Below, in pieces: positions 2,951 to 15,958 of a stretch of DNA of 16,937 bases (its first letter is position 1; every line of letters starts with the position of its first letter). Source of the stretch: Gemmatimonadota bacterium (GTDB taxonomy: Bacteria > GCA-2686955); the NCBI GenBank assembly GCA_002686955.1, contig NYZA01000050.1, positions 1 through 16,937 on the forward strand. Direction: 5' to 3'. The position numbers and the translations under genes are program-made. The notes beneath the pieces are model-generated. The model was not told the origin of the DNA. It did not search any database and saw only the letters and a program-made list of their open reading frames with translations.

Positions 2951-4642
2951 ATGGATGCCGATCGCCGCCTGATGCTCGTGGGTCTCGATGGAGCCTCATG
3001 GCCGGTGCTGCGCCGATGGATCGACGAGGGAGCGATGCCCAACTTGGCGGGACTTGCCGACCGCGGGGCGTGTGGACCTTTGCGCACGGTCGTTCCACCG
3101 GTGACCGCGGCCGCGTGGTCGACGATCGTGACCGGGCTGAACCCGGGCCGCCATGGCATCTTCGAGTTCCTCGTGAAAGACGGCGCGTGGGATCGGGAAG
3201 TGCCGGTCTCGGCGAGGATGCGGCGGGGCGCGACGCTCTGGGACGAAGTGGGCGCCGCCGGTGGCCGCTCCATCGTCTTGAATATGCCCGTGACCTATCC
3301 GCCGGCGTCGATAGAGGGCGAGATGGTCTCGGGCTTCTTGACGCCGCCGGGGGCGGAGCGGATCTCGTGGCCGCACGGGCTCGCGGCCGAGCTCGATGCG
3401 CGTTTCGGGCCCTATCCGCTCCATATTCGCGAGGTGTACGCGGCCGGGCGGGTCGACGCGATCCTCGATGAGCTTTTTCGGGAGCTCGACCACCGCGGCC
3501 GGGTGTGCGAGTACATGAACGATAGCCGCCCATGGAACCTCTTCTGCCTGCACCTCTGGGGACCGGACCGCCTGCAGCATGAGCTGTGGCACGTTTTCGA
3601 CCCAACGCACTCGATGCACGACCCGGCCGAGGCAAAAAAGCATCTGCCACGGATTCGCGAATACTTCGCTCGGCTCGATCGACTGCTCGGGGAGCTCTTC
3701 GGTTTTCTGGGGGAGCGCGACCACGGGATGATCGTCTCCGATCACGGCTTCGGTCCGATCGAGCACTACCTCTGCATGAACCTCATTCTCTTGGCGACGG
3801 GGTTCCTCGAGCTGCGGAGCAGCGCCGCGGTGCGCCTGAAGAGGCTCGTGCTCCGCCTCGGTTTCTCGCCCCTGAATCTCTACCGGCTCGCGGCCGCTAT
3901 CGGTCTGGGGCGCCTGCGTCTCTCGAAGGGCTTTGGTCAACGTCAGGCGTTGGTGGCCCCATTGGCCCGTCTTTTCCTGAGCCTGGACGATGTCGATTGG
4001 AGCCGGACACGAGCTTATTCGCGTGGGAACTATGGTCAGATCTACGTCAACACGGCGGGGAGGGAGCATGGGGGGGTCGTTCCAGAGGGCGAAGGAAGAG
4101 ATGGCGTGCTCCGTGAGTTGGAGTGCGTGCTCCGAGAGGTTGAGGCGCCCGATGGCGGGGCTCTTTTCGGCGAGATTCTCCGGCGGGAGCAGCTCCACGA
4201 GGGGCCGTGGGCTCGTTGGTCCCCCGATCTGGTCGCCCTGCCCGCGGACATGAGGCATAAGGCGCTGGGAACCTTCGATTTCTCGATGTCGCACCTCACT
4301 CAGCGGGTCTCAGGGAACTCCGGGGATCATCGGCTCGACGGAATGCTGCTGCTGGCCGGAGATCGTGTGTGTCCAGGCCCGATCGAGGGCGCGGGAGTGG
4401 CGGACGTCTTCCCAACCGTGCTCCATCTGCTGGGGATCGGGTCGGAGGATCGGGTCGACGGGGCCGTGCTCACACGCGCGCTGCGAGAAGGCGAGGCAGC
4501 GGAGCATGAAGCGCCGTCCGGTGGGACACAGCTCCCGCGGCCGCGAAGTAGAGATGACCGAAGCAGGGCGATCCGCCCTCTTCGCCCGGATGAGGCCCGG
4601 GTGATTCGCGAGGCTCTTCGCGGCGTCGGCTACTGGAGCTGA
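2951..4642 (+). CDS. AlkP-superfamily phosphodiesterase/phosphatase-like protein
   Basis: The protein has 563 residues and belongs to the type I phosphodiesterase/nucleotide pyrophosphatase branch of the alkaline phosphatase superfamily (PF01663-like). The binuclear-metal and catalytic set is complete by eye: D13 in LMLVGLDGAS, Thr nucleophile T52 in PPVTAAAWSTIVTG, D206 and H210 in GPDRLQH, D264-H265 in IVSDHGFG, and H460 in SGDHRLDG. These enzymes hydrolyse or transfer phosphodiesters or phosphomonoesters; the substrate cannot be read from sequence. There is no signal peptide or membrane helix, so it looks cytoplasmic unless exported unusually. It ends in LRGVGYWS, echoing the LRALGYVE tail of the fused AlkP protein later in the operon. 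It is the first gene of the plus-strand operon, with a leaderless-type start, and is followed after 3 bases by the GT-C fusion gene. A role in processing a phospho-linked glycan or lipid-linked sugar is inference. Confidence 0.87.
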   Translation: MDADRRLMLVGLDGASWPVLRRWIDEGAMPNLAGLADRGACGPLRTVVPPVTAAAWSTIVTGLNPGRHGIFEFLVKDGAWDREVPVSARMRRGATLWDEVGAAGGRSIVLNMPVTYPPASIEGEMVSGFLTPPGAERISWPHGLAAELDARFGPYPLHIREVYAAGRVDAILDELFRELDHRGRVCEYMNDSRPWNLFCLHLWGPDRLQHELWHVFDPTHSMHDPAEAKKHLPRIREYFARLDRLLGELFGFLGERDHGMIVSDHGFGPIEHYLCMNLILLATGFLELRSSAAVRLKRLVLRLGFSPLNLYRLAAAIGLGRLRLSKGFGQRQALVAPLARLFLSLDDVDWSRTRAYSRGNYGQIYVNTAGREHGGVVPEGEGRDGVLRELECVLREVEAPDGGALFGEILRREQLHEGPWARWSPDLVALPADMRHKALGTFDFSMSHLTQRVSGNSGDHRLDGMLLLAGDRVCPGPIEGAGVADVFPTVLHLLGIGSEDRVDGAVLTRALREGEAAEHEAPSGGTQLPRPRSRDDRSRAIRPLRPDEARVIREALRGVGYWS

Positions 4643-4645
4643 GTC

Positions 4646-7147
4646 TTGGCCGTTACCGGACGACGCCGCAGGTTCCGACTGGTCGCGAAGGGTAGACGCA
4701 CGGGCGGGTCGCCCGTCCCCGAACGCAGAACCGGCGATCTCGCGACCGCGATCCTGATCCTCGTCGGCCTCGCGGCGCTCTTCCTTTCGTATTCGAACTA
4801 CGGCGTCAACGTTCTCGACGAGGGGTATCTGCTCGGCGCGGTCGAGCGAGTCGCGCGGGGAGAGGTGCCCTATCGGGATTTCGCGCATCAGTACGCACCT
4901 GGGCGCTTCTACCTCTTCTCGTGGCTCTTCGAGCTCGTACCCCCCTCGATCGAGGCGACGCGGGCGGTCTGGGCGCTCCTTCTCGCGTTGACCGGCACCG
5001 CGATCTATCTGACCGCGCGGCATTTCGCCGGGCGAGTCGCGGCGCTTTGGCCGGTGCTCGCATTCGCGGTGGCGCCCGGTCCCTGGCAGAAATCGTTCCT
5101 AGTTCTCGGGAGCATCGTGTTGGCGCTGGCGCTTCTGCGCTTCTGCGAGAAACCCGCTGGGAGCCGCGCCTTCCTCTTCGGGGTCCTCGCCGGGGCGGTT
5201 TTGATTCTCAGGCAAGATGTGGCTCTTTACGGAATGGTGGCCTTTGCCGTCGCGGTCGTTCGTCTTGCTCCATCCCGTTGGGCTCACGCCGGATCTTGGC
5301 TTCTGCTCGCCGGGGGAGGATTCGCGCTCGCCGTGGCGCCCGTGGCGGCGGCCTTCTTCATGAAGGGCGCGCTCGGCGACGCCGTTTGGAGCATGCTTTT
5401 CGCTGGACTGGAGGGTGTGAGAGCCAACGCCTTGCCCTTTCCTTCGCTCTTGCCTCTCATGCCGCGCTCTCTCGGCGATCTGATCGAGGTTCCTTCCCGC
5501 CTTCTTCACTACCTTCCTCCCCTTGTGCTCGGAATCGCCGCGATCTGGGGGCTCCTGATCAGGGAACGCTCTCGGTCCGCGGGGGTGCTCTCCCTCGCCG
5601 CGCTCGGGGTCCTGCTCTTTCGACTAGATCTCGATCGAAGCCACGCCATGCACCTGCTTCAGGTGCTGCCGATCCCCTGGATCTTCACCGCCGCGGCCCT
5701 GGAACGTTGGGGGGGCACCCGGGCGAAGAGCGCGACGGCGGTGGCGGTCATCGCGCTCGTAATCCTGAGCAAGATCGGGCATAGCCACTACCCCAGCAGC
5801 TTCTGGGTGAGGGCGGGGATGAGCAAGGCGCTCGAGCTCGATCGCGCCCATCTGCGCCTGGAGCCGAATCGGGCCGCGGCGCTGAGCGGTGTCGTGCGAT
5901 ACGTGAGAGAGCAGACCGAGAAGAACGAGCCTCTGCTCGCGCTGCCCGATCTTCCCCTCGTCCATTTCTTGAGCGATCGGCCAAACCCGTTGCGATACGA
6001 CCTGCTCCGGGCGGGGCGCCTACACGGCGCCGACGACGAACGAGAGACCATCCGGCGCATCGACACCGCGGCGCCGACCTGGTTCGTGTGGAATACCAAG
6101 GCGGTCGACTCGGAACTGCCGGGGCGCCGCCTGCAAGCCCACGCACCCGCCCTGTGGGGGCACCTCATGGGCCGATTCCGGCTGGTCGAGGAGTTCGGCC
6201 CCTACCGGGTCTACCGGAGAAGAGACGAGAAGCCGCCCCGTCCCGAGATCGTTCTGCTGGGCGTGGAAGGATGGACAGTCCAGTCGTCGCCGGAGCCCCC
6301 GCCGGGATTGCGCGACCGTTGCACGCAGTTCGACCTCGCCCTCTCTCCTTCGATGAACGCCGAGGAGGCTTGGCTCGCCATGAGCTCGGGAGTGACGCCG
6401 GGTCGAAGGCGGCAGGGTATTGAGGGCGGATTCAACTTGCGGTCGGTGCTGAGCTCGGCGGGGTATCGGCTGCGGGGATGGGACGAAGCGGTCGACCTGC
6501 GCGATCACGCTGCGAAGATGGCCGTTGTCGACCGGATCGTCGCCGAGGGTTTCGACGACGCTTACGGTCTGCTTGAACGGGCCTTCTCGGAACGGGAGGG
6601 CGAGAGGATCACGATCGTGGCGGGCTTGGGGAAGGAGAAGGTATTGGGACGGGAGTACGAGCGGGCCGCCGGAAAGGTGCGCGGAGTGGTTGCGGGGGCG
6701 CGTCCGACCGGAACGGTCTTCCGCTCGGATCTCACACGCGTCCCCTTCGATTCAGCGGTTCGGGTGCCGCTGTGGGTGGCATCGCCGACCGAAGGGGTGC
6801 GGCGCTCTCCGGCGCCAGTCTCGCTGCTCGATGTGGTCCCCACCTTGCTCGATCTGCTCGCGCTCGACACCGGCGAGCGGGTCGATGGCGTCTCCTTGGT
6901 GCCCATCACGCGTGGTTTCAAAGCGATTTCGAGATACCATTATGTGGAGGGGAGTTTCCGGCGGGCGGACGATCCCAGGTGGTGGGGCATCCGCGGCAGG
7001 GCCTGGAAGCTGCTTCTCGGGCCCTCCGGAGAACGCGTGCTGCTCGATCTCAGCGCCGATCCCGGCGAGACTCTCGATCTATCGGTTCGCTCTCGCGAGC
7101 GGGTTCGGCGCTTGACCGCCATCGCGATCTCGTCTGTGGAGGAATGA
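4646..7147 (+). CDS. GT-C membrane glycosyltransferase fused to an inactive AlkP-like domain
   Basis: The protein has 833 residues. Residues 32-376 carry roughly ten to twelve hydrophobic helices. The first periplasmic loop holds NVLDEGYLLGAVERVARGEVPYRDF-like sequence (55-79), typical of ArnT/PMT-type (GT39/GT83, PMT_2-like) transferases that use polyprenyl-phosphate sugars; D58-E59 is the likely catalytic acidic pair. Residues 400-525 look like the usual soluble C-terminal part of such enzymes. From about 534 to 833 a second domain follows the AlkP/sulfatase fold: EIVLLGVEGWT, then AWLAMSSGVTPGR, AVVDRIVAEG, ITIVAG, VRVPLWVASP and VSLLDVVPTLLDLLAL. Aligned by eye to the preceding gene, the metal Asp is E541, the nucleophile Thr is A572, and the DH metal pair is G660-L661, so this domain should be dead. 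The TTG start at 4646 has GGAG 7 bases upstream and lies 3 bases after the previous stop. The inactive domain probably binds a glycan or a partner. Confidence 0.82.
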   Translation: MAVTGRRRRFRLVAKGRRTGGSPVPERRTGDLATAILILVGLAALFLSYSNYGVNVLDEGYLLGAVERVARGEVPYRDFAHQYAPGRFYLFSWLFELVPPSIEATRAVWALLLALTGTAIYLTARHFAGRVAALWPVLAFAVAPGPWQKSFLVLGSIVLALALLRFCEKPAGSRAFLFGVLAGAVLILRQDVALYGMVAFAVAVVRLAPSRWAHAGSWLLLAGGGFALAVAPVAAAFFMKGALGDAVWSMLFAGLEGVRANALPFPSLLPLMPRSLGDLIEVPSRLLHYLPPLVLGIAAIWGLLIRERSRSAGVLSLAALGVLLFRLDLDRSHAMHLLQVLPIPWIFTAAALERWGGTRAKSATAVAVIALVILSKIGHSHYPSSFWVRAGMSKALELDRAHLRLEPNRAAALSGVVRYVREQTEKNEPLLALPDLPLVHFLSDRPNPLRYDLLRAGRLHGADDERETIRRIDTAAPTWFVWNTKAVDSELPGRRLQAHAPALWGHLMGRFRLVEEFGPYRVYRRRDEKPPRPEIVLLGVEGWTVQSSPEPPPGLRDRCTQFDLALSPSMNAEEAWLAMSSGVTPGRRRQGIEGGFNLRSVLSSAGYRLRGWDEAVDLRDHAAKMAVVDRIVAEGFDDAYGLLERAFSEREGERITIVAGLGKEKVLGREYERAAGKVRGVVAGARPTGTVFRSDLTRVPFDSAVRVPLWVASPTEGVRRSPAPVSLLDVVPTLLDLLALDTGERVDGVSLVPITRGFKAISRYHYVEGSFRRADDPRWWGIRGRAWKLLLGPSGERVLLDLSADPGETLDLSVRSRERVRRLTAIAISSVEE

Positions 7148-11724: not shown

Positions 11725-12644
11725 TGGTGGGCGTTTCGGTCGTCATTCCGACTCTCGATGGTGGAGATCGGCTCGATTCGGTTCTTGACGCGGTCATGAC
11801 GCAAGAGGGAGATGACTTCGACGAAATCGAGATCGTCTGCGTCGACAGTGGATCTCGCCCCCCCATGAGAAAGCGGCTCGATCGCAAGGACGTACGCGTG
11901 ATCGACATCCCGAGGGGATCGTTCGACCACGGAGCAACGCGCCGCCTGGGGATCGAGAATACGAGAGGAGAGTTCGTCGCCCTTTTGACGCAGGACGCAC
12001 GCCCCGCCGACACCCGCTGGCTCGCGCCCTTGATCGATGCCCTTCGGCGCGATTCCGAGGCGGCCGGCGCGTGGAGTCGACAGCTCGTCCGCCCCGGCGC
12101 CGACCCACTGGAACGATGGAAGATGCACCACTGGTCCGGCTCGAAGAGGGAAGCTCGGCGCGCCGGCCTGCCCGAAGGGGAGGGCTGGGACGATCTCGAT
12201 CCGCGCCGGAGGTATCAGGTCGCGCTCTTCGACGACGTGAGCTGCTGCATTCGGCGTTCCGATTGGCAACGCATCCCTCACCGGCCGGTCGAGTTCGGCG
12301 AAGATCTCGATTGGGGACGACGGGTCGTGGAGGCGGGGCGACGGATCCTCTTCGTGCCGGAATCGCGCGTCGTTCACAGCCACCCGGCGCGCACCTGGAG
12401 CGACGCGAGGAGGGTCTTCGCCGACCATCGCAACATCATTCGTCTGACCGGATGGCGCACCGTTCCGACCCTCGGCACGGTGCCGCGTGCCGCGATCGGT
12501 GGTTTGCTCGATATGACGCGCTTCGTCTGGCGAACCTCGCCACCATCCGCCCGCCCGGGTCCGCTCGTCCGCTCCATCCCCTACGCTCTCGGACTCGCCG
12601 CGGCACAATGGGCCGCATCCGCAAAGGAGCGCGCCGCCCGGTGA
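11724..12644 (+). CDS. Glycosyltransferase family 2, rhamnosyltransferase-like
   Basis: The protein has 306 residues and a GT-A fold. It starts VSVVIPTLDGGDRLDSVL (4-21), the nucleotide-binding first strand. FDHGATRRLGIENTRGEFVALLTQDARP (67-94 region) is characteristic of GT2 rhamnosyltransferase-like enzymes, with D91 in the metal-binding TQDA position. GEDLDWGRRVVEAG (192-205) is the catalytic-base ED region, and RVVHSH (215-220) completes the C-terminal site. Residues 280-300 are mildly hydrophobic and may touch the membrane. It is expected to add a deoxyhexose such as rhamnose from an NDP-sugar, but no dTDP-rhamnose synthesis genes are in the window, so the donor is uncertain. The ATG shares one base with the previous stop (TGATG), with CGGAGG at 11711-11716. 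Confidence 0.86.
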   Translation: MVGVSVVIPTLDGGDRLDSVLDAVMTQEGDDFDEIEIVCVDSGSRPPMRKRLDRKDVRVIDIPRGSFDHGATRRLGIENTRGEFVALLTQDARPADTRWLAPLIDALRRDSEAAGAWSRQLVRPGADPLERWKMHHWSGSKREARRAGLPEGEGWDDLDPRRRYQVALFDDVSCCIRRSDWQRIPHRPVEFGEDLDWGRRVVEAGRRILFVPESRVVHSHPARTWSDARRVFADHRNIIRLTGWRTVPTLGTVPRAAIGGLLDMTRFVWRTSPPSARPGPLVRSIPYALGLAAAQWAASAKERAAR

Positions 12645-15600
12645 AGATTCTGCACGTCGTCCACCGTCTTCCCGATCCACGGGCGCCGGGTGGCTCGGAG
12701 CTGCACGCATGGAGGCTCGCCGCCGCTCAGAAGAGGTTGGGGCATGATGTGCTGATCGCGCTTGGAGATCCTGCGGCCGCGATCGGGGAGGAGGTGGACT
12801 GCGTTTCGCTCCCCACCTCGAATCGCGCACCATGGGGCGATCGGCGGATCGATGACGCGATCTTTGGGCGCACTCGAGAATGGGGCGCGGAGATCGTCCA
12901 CCTCCACCACCTCATGAACCTCTCGGCGTCGGCACCGATCGCGTTGCGGCGAGGCGAGATCCCCTGCGTCATGACGGCGCACGATCTGTGGACCTTTTGC
13001 CCGCGGGGACAGATGGTGCATAGCAATGGGGAGCGCTGCGTCGAGCCCAGCTCGGCCCGCTGCGGACCTTGCCTCGGCATCGAAGCTGAAACATGTGGGA
13101 CGAAGAGGTGGCTATTGCGTAGAGCTCGCAACAGTATTGACGCACAGGCGCTCTCTCGGGTGCGACGCGAAGCGCTCGAATCGATCGACCGTATCATCGC
13201 TCCGGCACCGCGTATCGCGACACTCTGGATCCGGCTTGGAGCTCCCCGAGAGCGGATCAGCGTCGTGCCGCACGGCATCGAAACCGCGGCGCCCCTCGAT
13301 CCGACGAGCGGACGGGACCGCGACGACTTCGTCTTCGGCATTCTCGGCTCTGTGCTTCCGACCAAAGGACACGAGATCGCGATCTCCGCGTTCCAGCGGT
13401 TGGCGGCGCCCCAACTACGCCTCGAAATCCACGGCCCTCGCCTCCCCTTCCACGGAGACCGAGAGCATCTCGCGCGGATCGACGCTGCCACCGCGCGAGA
13501 TCCCCGCATCTCGATCCACGGCCCGTATCGCCCCAACGATCTCGACCGTGTGCTCGCCCGCCTCGACGCCGTGCTCGTCCCCTCGATCTGGGAGGAGCAT
13601 TTCGGGCTCACCCTGCACGAGGCATCGACGCGCGGACTTCCGGTGATCGCGAGCGAAATCGGCGCACTGCCCGACGCGATCGTGCCCGAGGAGACCGGTC
13701 TGTTGGTCCCCCCAGGCGACCCCGCCGCGCTCGCCTCCGCCATGGGCAAAGTGTCGCGTCATGAATGGTCCCCGTCTCGGAGAATCGAGCCGCGCACCAT
13801 CGAAGAGAACGCGCGCGATATATACGAAGTGCTCCAATCGGTCGTCGCATCGGCGCGCAACAGGATCGGTGCAATCGCGCTGGCGGCGGCTATTCTCTCC
13901 CCCTTCACCCCGACGAGCCAAGCCGCCGAGACGGTTCGAGTCGAGCGCAAGATCGAGCTCGCCGAACGCTTCACCTCCGCCTCGATACGTCCCTCTGATG
14001 CCGATGTGCGGGTCACGCGGATCTTCGTCGGTGGCGAAGAAGCCCCCTGCATCTTCCAACACCCCGACAGCAAGATCACCTTTGAAGATGTGCCTCTTCA
14101 CGAAGGGGCACGCTTCGTGGCCGCGCTCGGAATCGCCGACGGCGCATGGGAACGCCCAGGAAACGGCGTTGTCTTCGAGCTCGCCCTCCCCGCCTTTTTC
14201 GGGGATCGCGTCATCTTCAGCCGGCGCGTCGACCCTCGCGTCGAATCCAAGGACCGCCGCTGGATTCCGGTCGACGTCCCCCTGGATCAGCTCGGCGTAT
14301 CGGGCTCCGCCGACCTCATCTTGCGCACCCTGGACGACGGCGACGGACGCTACGACTGGGCCGCTTGGCGAAGCCCGCGAATCGTTTCATCCGGCGCTCT
14401 TCGCGCGGCCTCTCCCGCCCTCCGCCCCGAGCCCTCTCTTCTCCTGATCACCATCGACACACTACGCGCCGATCACCTCGGCATTTGCGGCGGCGCCCCC
14501 ACGCCGACCCTCGACTCGCTCGCCGCCTCCGGCAGCACCCGCTGCGATATTCAGAGCCACGCTCCGATCACAGCCCCGTCTCACGCCGCTCTGATGCTGG
14601 GGCGCCTGCCCCGCGAGGCCGGGGTTCTGAACAACGGCGACCATCTACAGAAGCTCGAATCGACCCTCGCCGAGAAGGCCCGCGCCGCCGGCATGCGCAC
14701 CGGAGCCGTCGTCGCCCTCGGAGTCCTCAACTCCCGCTTCGGTTTCGATCGCGGCTTCGAGCGCTTCCTCGACGTGCCGGAAGGCCCGGTCTACTGGCGC
14801 CCCGGCGAAGAGGTGAACCGCCTCGCATTCCGACTCCTCGAATGGGCACGGCTCGACCGCTTCTTGCTCTGGGTGCACTACGCCGAGCCGCACGAACCGT
14901 ACGAACCGCCCGCAACCGCCGGCAACACGCTGCGCCTCGTCGACGCATCCGGCGCGCCCGTCCCGCGTCATCGCTTTACCAGAGACACTCTCTCCAGCGT
15001 CCCCCTCTTGCTCCCCCCGGGCGAAACCCGGCTCCGGCTCGAGGCCGAGAAGGCGGGGAACCTGCTGCGCGGAAGCGAGCTCACATTCAAGCTGCCCGTG
15101 CTCCGCCTCGAGGGCCTGGCGCCGGAAGAGCTCGCTGAGCTCGACATGAAACTCGGAGAAGGATGGCGCGAGTTCCCGCGCGGCCTCGGCCTCGAAGGGC
15201 GCTGGTTGACGCGGGCGGGCGAGATCGTGATCACCAACCGCTCGCCCGAGCCGAAGCGCGTCACCCTACGATATCTCGCCAAGGAGCACATGGCGCTGGC
15301 GGAGCTGGGCAGGCGTTACGCGGGTGAGGTGGCCCATGTCGACCGCCTAATCGGCGAGCTCCTCGCCGAGCTTCGCGGGCTGGGGCTCGACCGATCCACT
15401 TACGTCGCAGTCACCGCCGATCACGGAGAAGCGTTGGGGGAACGGGGATTGGTGGGACACGTTCACCATCTCTACGACCATCTCCTGGCGGTGCCGATAC
15501 TGCTGGCCGGCCCTTCGCCCAATCGACTCGGTGACAGGAGCCCCGCGGGAATCGTCGACCTGCACGCCACCCTGCTCGACCTACTCTCACTTCCCCCTCT

Positions 15601-15958
15601 TCCCGGAGGACGAGGAGAGTCGCTTCTCGTCTCTCCGAGCTCCGACGGTGCGCCGCCCCCCCGCGACCGCGTCGTTTTCAGCGAAACCCACCGCCCTCAG
15701 GCCGATCGAGACCGCGTCGCTCTGGTCAGCCGCGGGTGGAGGCTGATCCGCTCTTTCGATCCCCTCGAAACCGAGCTCTACGAGCTGACGCCCGATGGCG
15801 AGAAGGGGAACATCCTCTCGCGGCACCCGGAGATCGCGATCGATCTCGGCCACAGGCTCGACTCGCTTCTCGATTCGAGCCCGGCTCCACCACCACGCCG
15901 ATCGGAATCCGACGAAGCGCTTCGGAGCCGCCTCCGCGCGCTGGGATACGTCGAATGA
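12641..15958 (+). CDS. GT4 glycosyltransferase fused to a membrane helix, beta domain and AlkP-superfamily domain
   Basis: The protein has 1105 residues. Residues 1-403 form a full GT4: VKILHVVHRLPDPRAPGGSE, GILGSVLPTKGHE (233-245), EX7E at E319-E327 and a Cys group C120, C133, C141, C144. Residues 408-421 (IGAIALAAAILSPF after RNR) form a short hydrophobic helix ending SQAAE, like a signal peptide or anchor. A beta-rich, jelly-roll-like domain follows (430-585), then an AlkP/sulfatase-type domain (about 597-1105): D606 and D611 in ITIDTLRADHLG, nucleophile T644 in TAPSHAALM, HYAEPHEPY (746-754), D927-H928 in TADHGE, and H940. Thr at the nucleophile excludes a formylglycine sulfatase. Residues about 758-885 insert extra beta-rich sequence. 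The GTG start overlaps the GT2 stop as GTGA, with AAAGGAG 11 bases upstream. The upstream open frame overlaps GT2 and is not real. One polypeptide may join cytoplasmic sugar addition to periplasmic ester chemistry. Confidence 0.83.
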   Translation: MKILHVVHRLPDPRAPGGSELHAWRLAAAQKRLGHDVLIALGDPAAAIGEEVDCVSLPTSNRAPWGDRRIDDAIFGRTREWGAEIVHLHHLMNLSASAPIALRRGEIPCVMTAHDLWTFCPRGQMVHSNGERCVEPSSARCGPCLGIEAETCGTKRWLLRRARNSIDAQALSRVRREALESIDRIIAPAPRIATLWIRLGAPRERISVVPHGIETAAPLDPTSGRDRDDFVFGILGSVLPTKGHEIAISAFQRLAAPQLRLEIHGPRLPFHGDREHLARIDAATARDPRISIHGPYRPNDLDRVLARLDAVLVPSIWEEHFGLTLHEASTRGLPVIASEIGALPDAIVPEETGLLVPPGDPAALASAMGKVSRHEWSPSRRIEPRTIEENARDIYEVLQSVVASARNRIGAIALAAAILSPFTPTSQAAETVRVERKIELAERFTSASIRPSDADVRVTRIFVGGEEAPCIFQHPDSKITFEDVPLHEGARFVAALGIADGAWERPGNGVVFELALPAFFGDRVIFSRRVDPRVESKDRRWIPVDVPLDQLGVSGSADLILRTLDDGDGRYDWAAWRSPRIVSSGALRAASPALRPEPSLLLITIDTLRADHLGICGGAPTPTLDSLAASGSTRCDIQSHAPITAPSHAALMLGRLPREAGVLNNGDHLQKLESTLAEKARAAGMRTGAVVALGVLNSRFGFDRGFERFLDVPEGPVYWRPGEEVNRLAFRLLEWARLDRFLLWVHYAEPHEPYEPPATAGNTLRLVDASGAPVPRHRFTRDTLSSVPLLLPPGETRLRLEAEKAGNLLRGSELTFKLPVLRLEGLAPEELAELDMKLGEGWREFPRGLGLEGRWLTRAGEIVITNRSPEPKRVTLRYLAKEHMALAELGRRYAGEVAHVDRLIGELLAELRGLGLDRSTYVAVTADHGEALGERGLVGHVHHLYDHLLAVPILLAGPSPNRLGDRSPAGIVDLHATLLDLLSLPPLPGGRGESLLVSPSSDGAPPPRDRVVFSETHRPQADRDRVALVSRGWRLIRSFDPLETELYELTPDGEKGNILSRHPEIAIDLGHRLDSLLDSSPAPPPRRSESDEALRSRLRALGYVE

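Follow-up and report, generated by a model that had tools for sequence, protein, structure and literature searches.

The fused reading frame and its domains

Our analysis of a 16,937-nucleotide stretch of DNA (the window) revealed a single reading frame in which a GT4 glycosyltransferase, a hydrophobic stretch, a beta-sandwich domain and an AlkP/S1-sulfatase-fold domain follow one another in this order. The window is one of the 270 contigs of a metagenome-assembled genome (MAG) of 4.28 Mb with 84.5% completeness, and the fusion is known from this one genome only. The gene cluster around it encodes an AlkP-superfamily phosphodiesterase, a polytopic PMT-like protein with an AlkP-like tail, a methyltransferase, a second GT4, two radical SAM proteins, a GT2 and an NTP_transf_5 protein, which suggests a locus of the surface-glycan type. 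The features of the fused gene are as follows.

12623-12629, plus strand: Shine-Dalgarno-like AAAGGAG upstream of GTG 12641 (duplex -8.1 kcal/mol)
12641-15958, plus strand: whole fused ORF, 1105 aa, GTG start, TGA stop overlapping the ATG of the next gene
12641-13849, plus strand: GT4 glycosyltransferase domain, residues 1 to about 403, EX7E motif E319/E327
13829-13831, plus strand: GTG at residue 397, the only in-frame start codon near the joint, without Shine-Dalgarno
13856-13924, plus strand: internal signal-peptide-like segment RNR-IGAIALAAAILSPFTPT-SQA, residues 406-428, with signal peptidase I (SPase I) cleavage predicted at 428/429
13928-14410, plus strand: beta-sandwich domain of CBM51/NPCBM fold, about residues 430-590
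14426-15955, plus strand: AlkP/S1-sulfatase-fold domain, residues 596-1105, with D606, T644, D927 and H928
14924-15292, plus strand: beta insert of about 120 residues in the AlkP domain (residues ~762-884), common to stand-alone relatives

Translation from GTG 12641 to the TGA ending at 15958 gave 1105 residues with no internal stop, in agreement with the sequence-only reading, which had described neither a stop nor a frame change between the GT4 and AlkP parts. The start codon has a strong Shine-Dalgarno and lies within a 4-base GTGA overlap with the stop of the GT2 gene, and the ORF ends in an ATGA overlap with the next gene; the stop-to-stop frame, at 1380 aa, is longer since it runs into the upstream GT2 gene. 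Codon log-odds favoured the fusion frame over the other two plus-strand frames across 13541-14200, with the antisense shadow frame being similar in places, and GC3 stayed level through the joint. Since the log-odds favour this frame without a dip across the joint, it is not a chance open frame.

The GT4 half had been described as complete with about 403 residues, and this was borne out by the domain matches. Its GT4 domains span residues 16-382 in Pfam, with PF13439 (E 4e-20, 73.0 bits vs. a cut-off of 28.5) and PF00534 (E 2e-23, 83.4 bits vs. a cut-off of 26.4), and the EX7E motif is whole (E319-HFGLTLH-E327). The last GT4 helix, TIEENARDIYEVLQSVVA, reaches to about residue 403, which is where stand-alone GT4s also end: the close relatives L166 and L167 have this helix as their last and stop soon after that point. 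The full domain, the EX7E motif and the C-terminal helix end are shared with GT4s of surface-glycan clusters (PF13439/PF00534; closest L166, L167, L056 and L010), but none of those read has an exported enzyme behind it as the fusion's GT4 does. A model of the whole protein by AlphaFold had a mean pLDDT of 55 and was unreliable outside the AlkP part; conclusions on the GT4 fold do not draw on it.

A separate model of the beta-sandwich domain, built with an alignment of 13 sequences, reached a pLDDT of 88.8 and matched CBM51 structures with Z 14.0-15.6 over 131-155 residues, about 2 Z units above the next structural group. The fold is thus that of CBM51/NPCBM domains; Pfam NPCBM gave weak matches in 5 of 13 family members (best E 4e-4) and the window's own domain had no Pfam match. 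Judging from the fold, this mobile accessory domain probably binds sugars.

The AlkP domain matched PF00884 over residues 599-982 (E 2e-26, 93.2 bits vs. a cut-off of 25), and its nearest structure was an S1 sulfatase (Z 36.4, rmsd 2.6 over 336 residues). The intact site with a threonine nucleophile that had been proposed for this domain was recovered by motif alignment, with metal ligands and nucleophile at D606 in DTLRADH, T644 in TAPSH and D927/H928 in DHGE. Formylglycine sulfatases require the motif C/S-X-P/A-X-R (PMC12421950), which is absent here, with T644-A-P-S-H in its place; despite a fold closest to S1 sulfatases the domain is therefore not a classical sulfatase. In the phosphoethanolamine transferases MCR-1, EptC and LptA, Thr is the nucleophile acting on phospho-esters (PMC5031297), and by this analogy the substrate of the AlkP half would likely be a phospho-ester. 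These transferases resemble the AlkP half in their AlkP-type fold and Thr nucleophile, and their glycolipid substrate is likewise modified on the outer side of the membrane (PMC5031297). They are, however, anchored by a membrane-spanning domain and structurally more distant than S1 sulfatases (Z 36), and the likeness seen is one of fold and nucleophile.

The joint and the distribution of the two halves

The segment between the two halves had been described as a membrane helix; its composition instead points to a signal peptide. A hydrophobic stretch (409-421) is followed by a proline-containing c-region and SQA|AE. Its core (409-420) has the highest hydrophobicity of any 12-mer in the whole protein (Kyte-Doolittle mean 2.41) and sits exactly between the domains. 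By motif, the segment has what is expected of an SPase I signal peptide, namely a positive n-region (RNR), a hydrophobic core of 10-15 residues (IGAIALAAAIL) and small residues at -3 and -1 (S-Q-A). For a transmembrane anchor a Kyte-Doolittle mean of at least 1.6 over about 19 residues was used as threshold, and the best 19-mer, which includes RNR, reached 1.49. The core of about 12 residues has a summed biological-scale value of +6, with prolines directly after it. The joint segment hence resembles the short core of a signal peptide, followed by an SPase I-like site, rather than a full transmembrane helix. A segment of this type would be expected to place the AlkP side outside the membrane, as had been suggested.

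The Shine-Dalgarno duplex at GTG 13829 amounts to 0.1 kcal/mol vs. -8.1 kcal/mol at GTG 12641, most other gene starts in the window having -4 to -11 kcal/mol. As far as the sequence tells, the AlkP half would be translated by read-on from the GT4. The GT4 is not closed by a stop, nor is the AlkP part preceded by a start codon that has a ribosome site, so the AlkP export signal stands directly behind the last GT4 helix. A frameshift at the joint was considered and rejected, as a GT4 end and a signal peptide are both absent from the other frames. Both halves are complete and joined without linker at the gene ends, with the AlkP export signal retained.

Outside this gene, the two halves were found apart. 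AlkP relatives bearing the insert are L072 (= L086; 34-36% identity), L085 from Acidobacteria (38%, the best), L087 from Planctomycetota, L088-L091 from Aminicenantes, and L092 and L093 from Acidobacteria. The best of them align across the whole AlkP domain including the unusual insert of about 120 residues, all are separate genes, and the Thr nucleophile is kept in the insert-bearing relatives. Each stand-alone relative has a hydrophobic N-terminal signal of its own, mostly of lipobox type and in a few cases plain hydrophobic. The proteins from Acidobacteria, Aminicenantes and Planctomycetota MAGs (L085-L093) thus share full-length match, insert, nucleophile and export with the AlkP half of the fusion, but they stand alone, mostly with a lipobox, whereas the fusion's AlkP sits behind a GT4.

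A second GT4-AlkP fusion, which the sequence-only reading had proposed to look for in related genomes, was not encountered. There was none in the source genome, in the phylum (2 genomes, including one family relative) or among 40 relatives, none in 386 genomes searched from the AlkP side (top 3 candidates scored per genome) and none in 290 genomes searched from the GT4 side (top 6 candidates scored per genome). A whole-protein search of the genome contigs gave no relative, none of 80 loci had a GT4 like that of the fusion (up to about 4.5 kb on each side), and a comparison of the neighbouring genes in G001, G353, G036, G035, G390 and G391 gave no sign of a shared cluster. The long frames that were read turned out to be GT4 with TPR, GT with GT, GT4 with some other second domain, or tandem AlkP proteins. 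Among the papers searched, none dealt with GT-sulfatase fusions. The fusion is a singleton, conserved nowhere in the genomes sampled, and is probably lineage-specific. The earlier idea that relatives might carry two separate genes here held in so far as the halves are separate; they were never adjacent.

Possible fate of the fused product

We give an even chance to an end-to-end fusion of two ordinary genes into a two-enzyme polyprotein that is probably split by signal peptidase. The ribosome would produce one chain, of which the GT4 folds in the cytoplasm and may add a sugar to a lipid-linked glycan, while the internal signal peptide, with the positive RNR kept inside, would route the CBM51-like and AlkP part through Sec. 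Signal peptidase I would then cut after SQA-428 and free an exported enzyme, whose CBM51-like domain may bind glycan and whose Thr644 and bound metal may hydrolyse or transfer a phospho-ester group. The most likely outcome would be two separate enzymes in 1:1 amounts on opposite sides of the membrane, like a bacterial polyprotein. In FbcH of Bradyrhizobium, the cytochrome b-c1 polyprotein, two proteins are likewise encoded in one frame and separated at an internal signal peptide, although FbcH consists of respiratory proteins and has no sequence kinship with the fusion. Cutting of a signal placed behind a folded domain of 400 residues would not be assured.

Cleavage after SQA had been put forward as an alternative to a stable bifunctional membrane protein, and is the better of the two readings, since the segment resembles a cleavable signal peptide. 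In the uncut form the segment would serve as an N-in/C-out anchor, with the GT4 in the cytoplasm and the AlkP in the periplasm, and the one chain would link the addition of a sugar with a subsequent modification of that glycan. The single chain, the RNR on the cytoplasmic flank, the presence of GT4 and AlkP within one glycan-type cluster and a further GT-AlkP joining at 4646-7147 are consistent with such an enzyme. We nevertheless regard it as unlikely given the core of only ~12 residues (biological-scale sum +6, 19-residue mean 1.49) with prolines right after it, the good SPase I site, and the relatives' AlkPs, which look like exported proteins or lipoproteins. That the GT4 glycosylates a lipid-linked glycan, which the uncut exported CBM51-AlkP part of a single membrane-spanning chain modifies after its flip, appears quite improbable.

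Should this one MAG carry an error of consensus or assembly, or a loss of the stop at strain level, two genes would be separated by a stop in the living population. This accords with a singleton in a fragmented MAG, with both halves being separate genes everywhere else seen, and with several codons in 13817-13860 that are one substitution away from a stop. The coding signal is continuous, however, there is neither an intergenic stretch nor a ribosome-site start suited to a separate AlkP gene, and a single indel offers no explanation because the last GT4 helix and the signal share one frame; we see a small chance for this account. The internal start at GTG 13829 that had been suggested would yield a separate exported AlkP besides or instead of the fusion and, lying 9 codons before the RNR n-region, would give a normal signal-peptide layout. 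It is very improbable, as the Shine-Dalgarno is missing and, in the absence of a stop, ribosomes from the GT4 would read through anyway.

If the sequence is right, the preferred reading, a polyprotein split at its signal peptide, would make this a natural GT4-exported-AlkP polyprotein, from a gene unusual in bacteria whose product has to be split at an internal signal peptide into a cytoplasmic and a periplasmic part. The fusion suggests that both activities serve one glycan, and it might help to explain what the large, uncharacterised Thr-type AlkP families of Acidobacteria-like phyla do.

Other AlkP-type and CBM51-like proteins

The cluster is headed by a PF01663 phosphodiesterase of the AlkP superfamily without obvious signal peptide (2951-4642, plus strand). 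Next to it, 4646-7147 (plus strand) encodes a polytopic PMT-like membrane protein (weak PF13231 match) with a C-terminal AlkP/sulfatase-like domain, in which metal ligands and nucleophile seem to be lost (GVEGW for DTLRADH, GLGKEKVLG for DHGE). The cluster has here another GT-AlkP fusion, apparently a dead one, and three AlkP-superfamily domains occur inside 13 kb.

The same genome (G000) has more than 30 AlkP/sulfatase-type matches in 4.3 Mb, many of which have several membrane helices at the N-terminus and share the C-terminal motif LRALGY. On contig C196, a frame of 1455 residues (L032:2769-7133, plus strand) begins with a lipobox-like N-terminus and also includes a stretch that resembles substrate-binding proteins and a tandem of at least two full AlkP domains. 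Fused neighbours as a genome-wide trait were considered for this ORF and rejected; it is without internal signal.

The beta domain of the fusion recurs as the C-terminal part of radical-SAM-type proteins and of a polytopic transferase-like protein; a frame of 1746 residues in the same genome contains it internally. Appended CBM51/NPCBM-like domains of this kind, without confident Pfam match, were seen on radical-SAM-type and polytopic proteins (L055, L062, L064, L065, L068 and L069, C-terminal ~150 aa; L063; L059), and these carriers are by expectation cytoplasm- or membrane-type enzymes.
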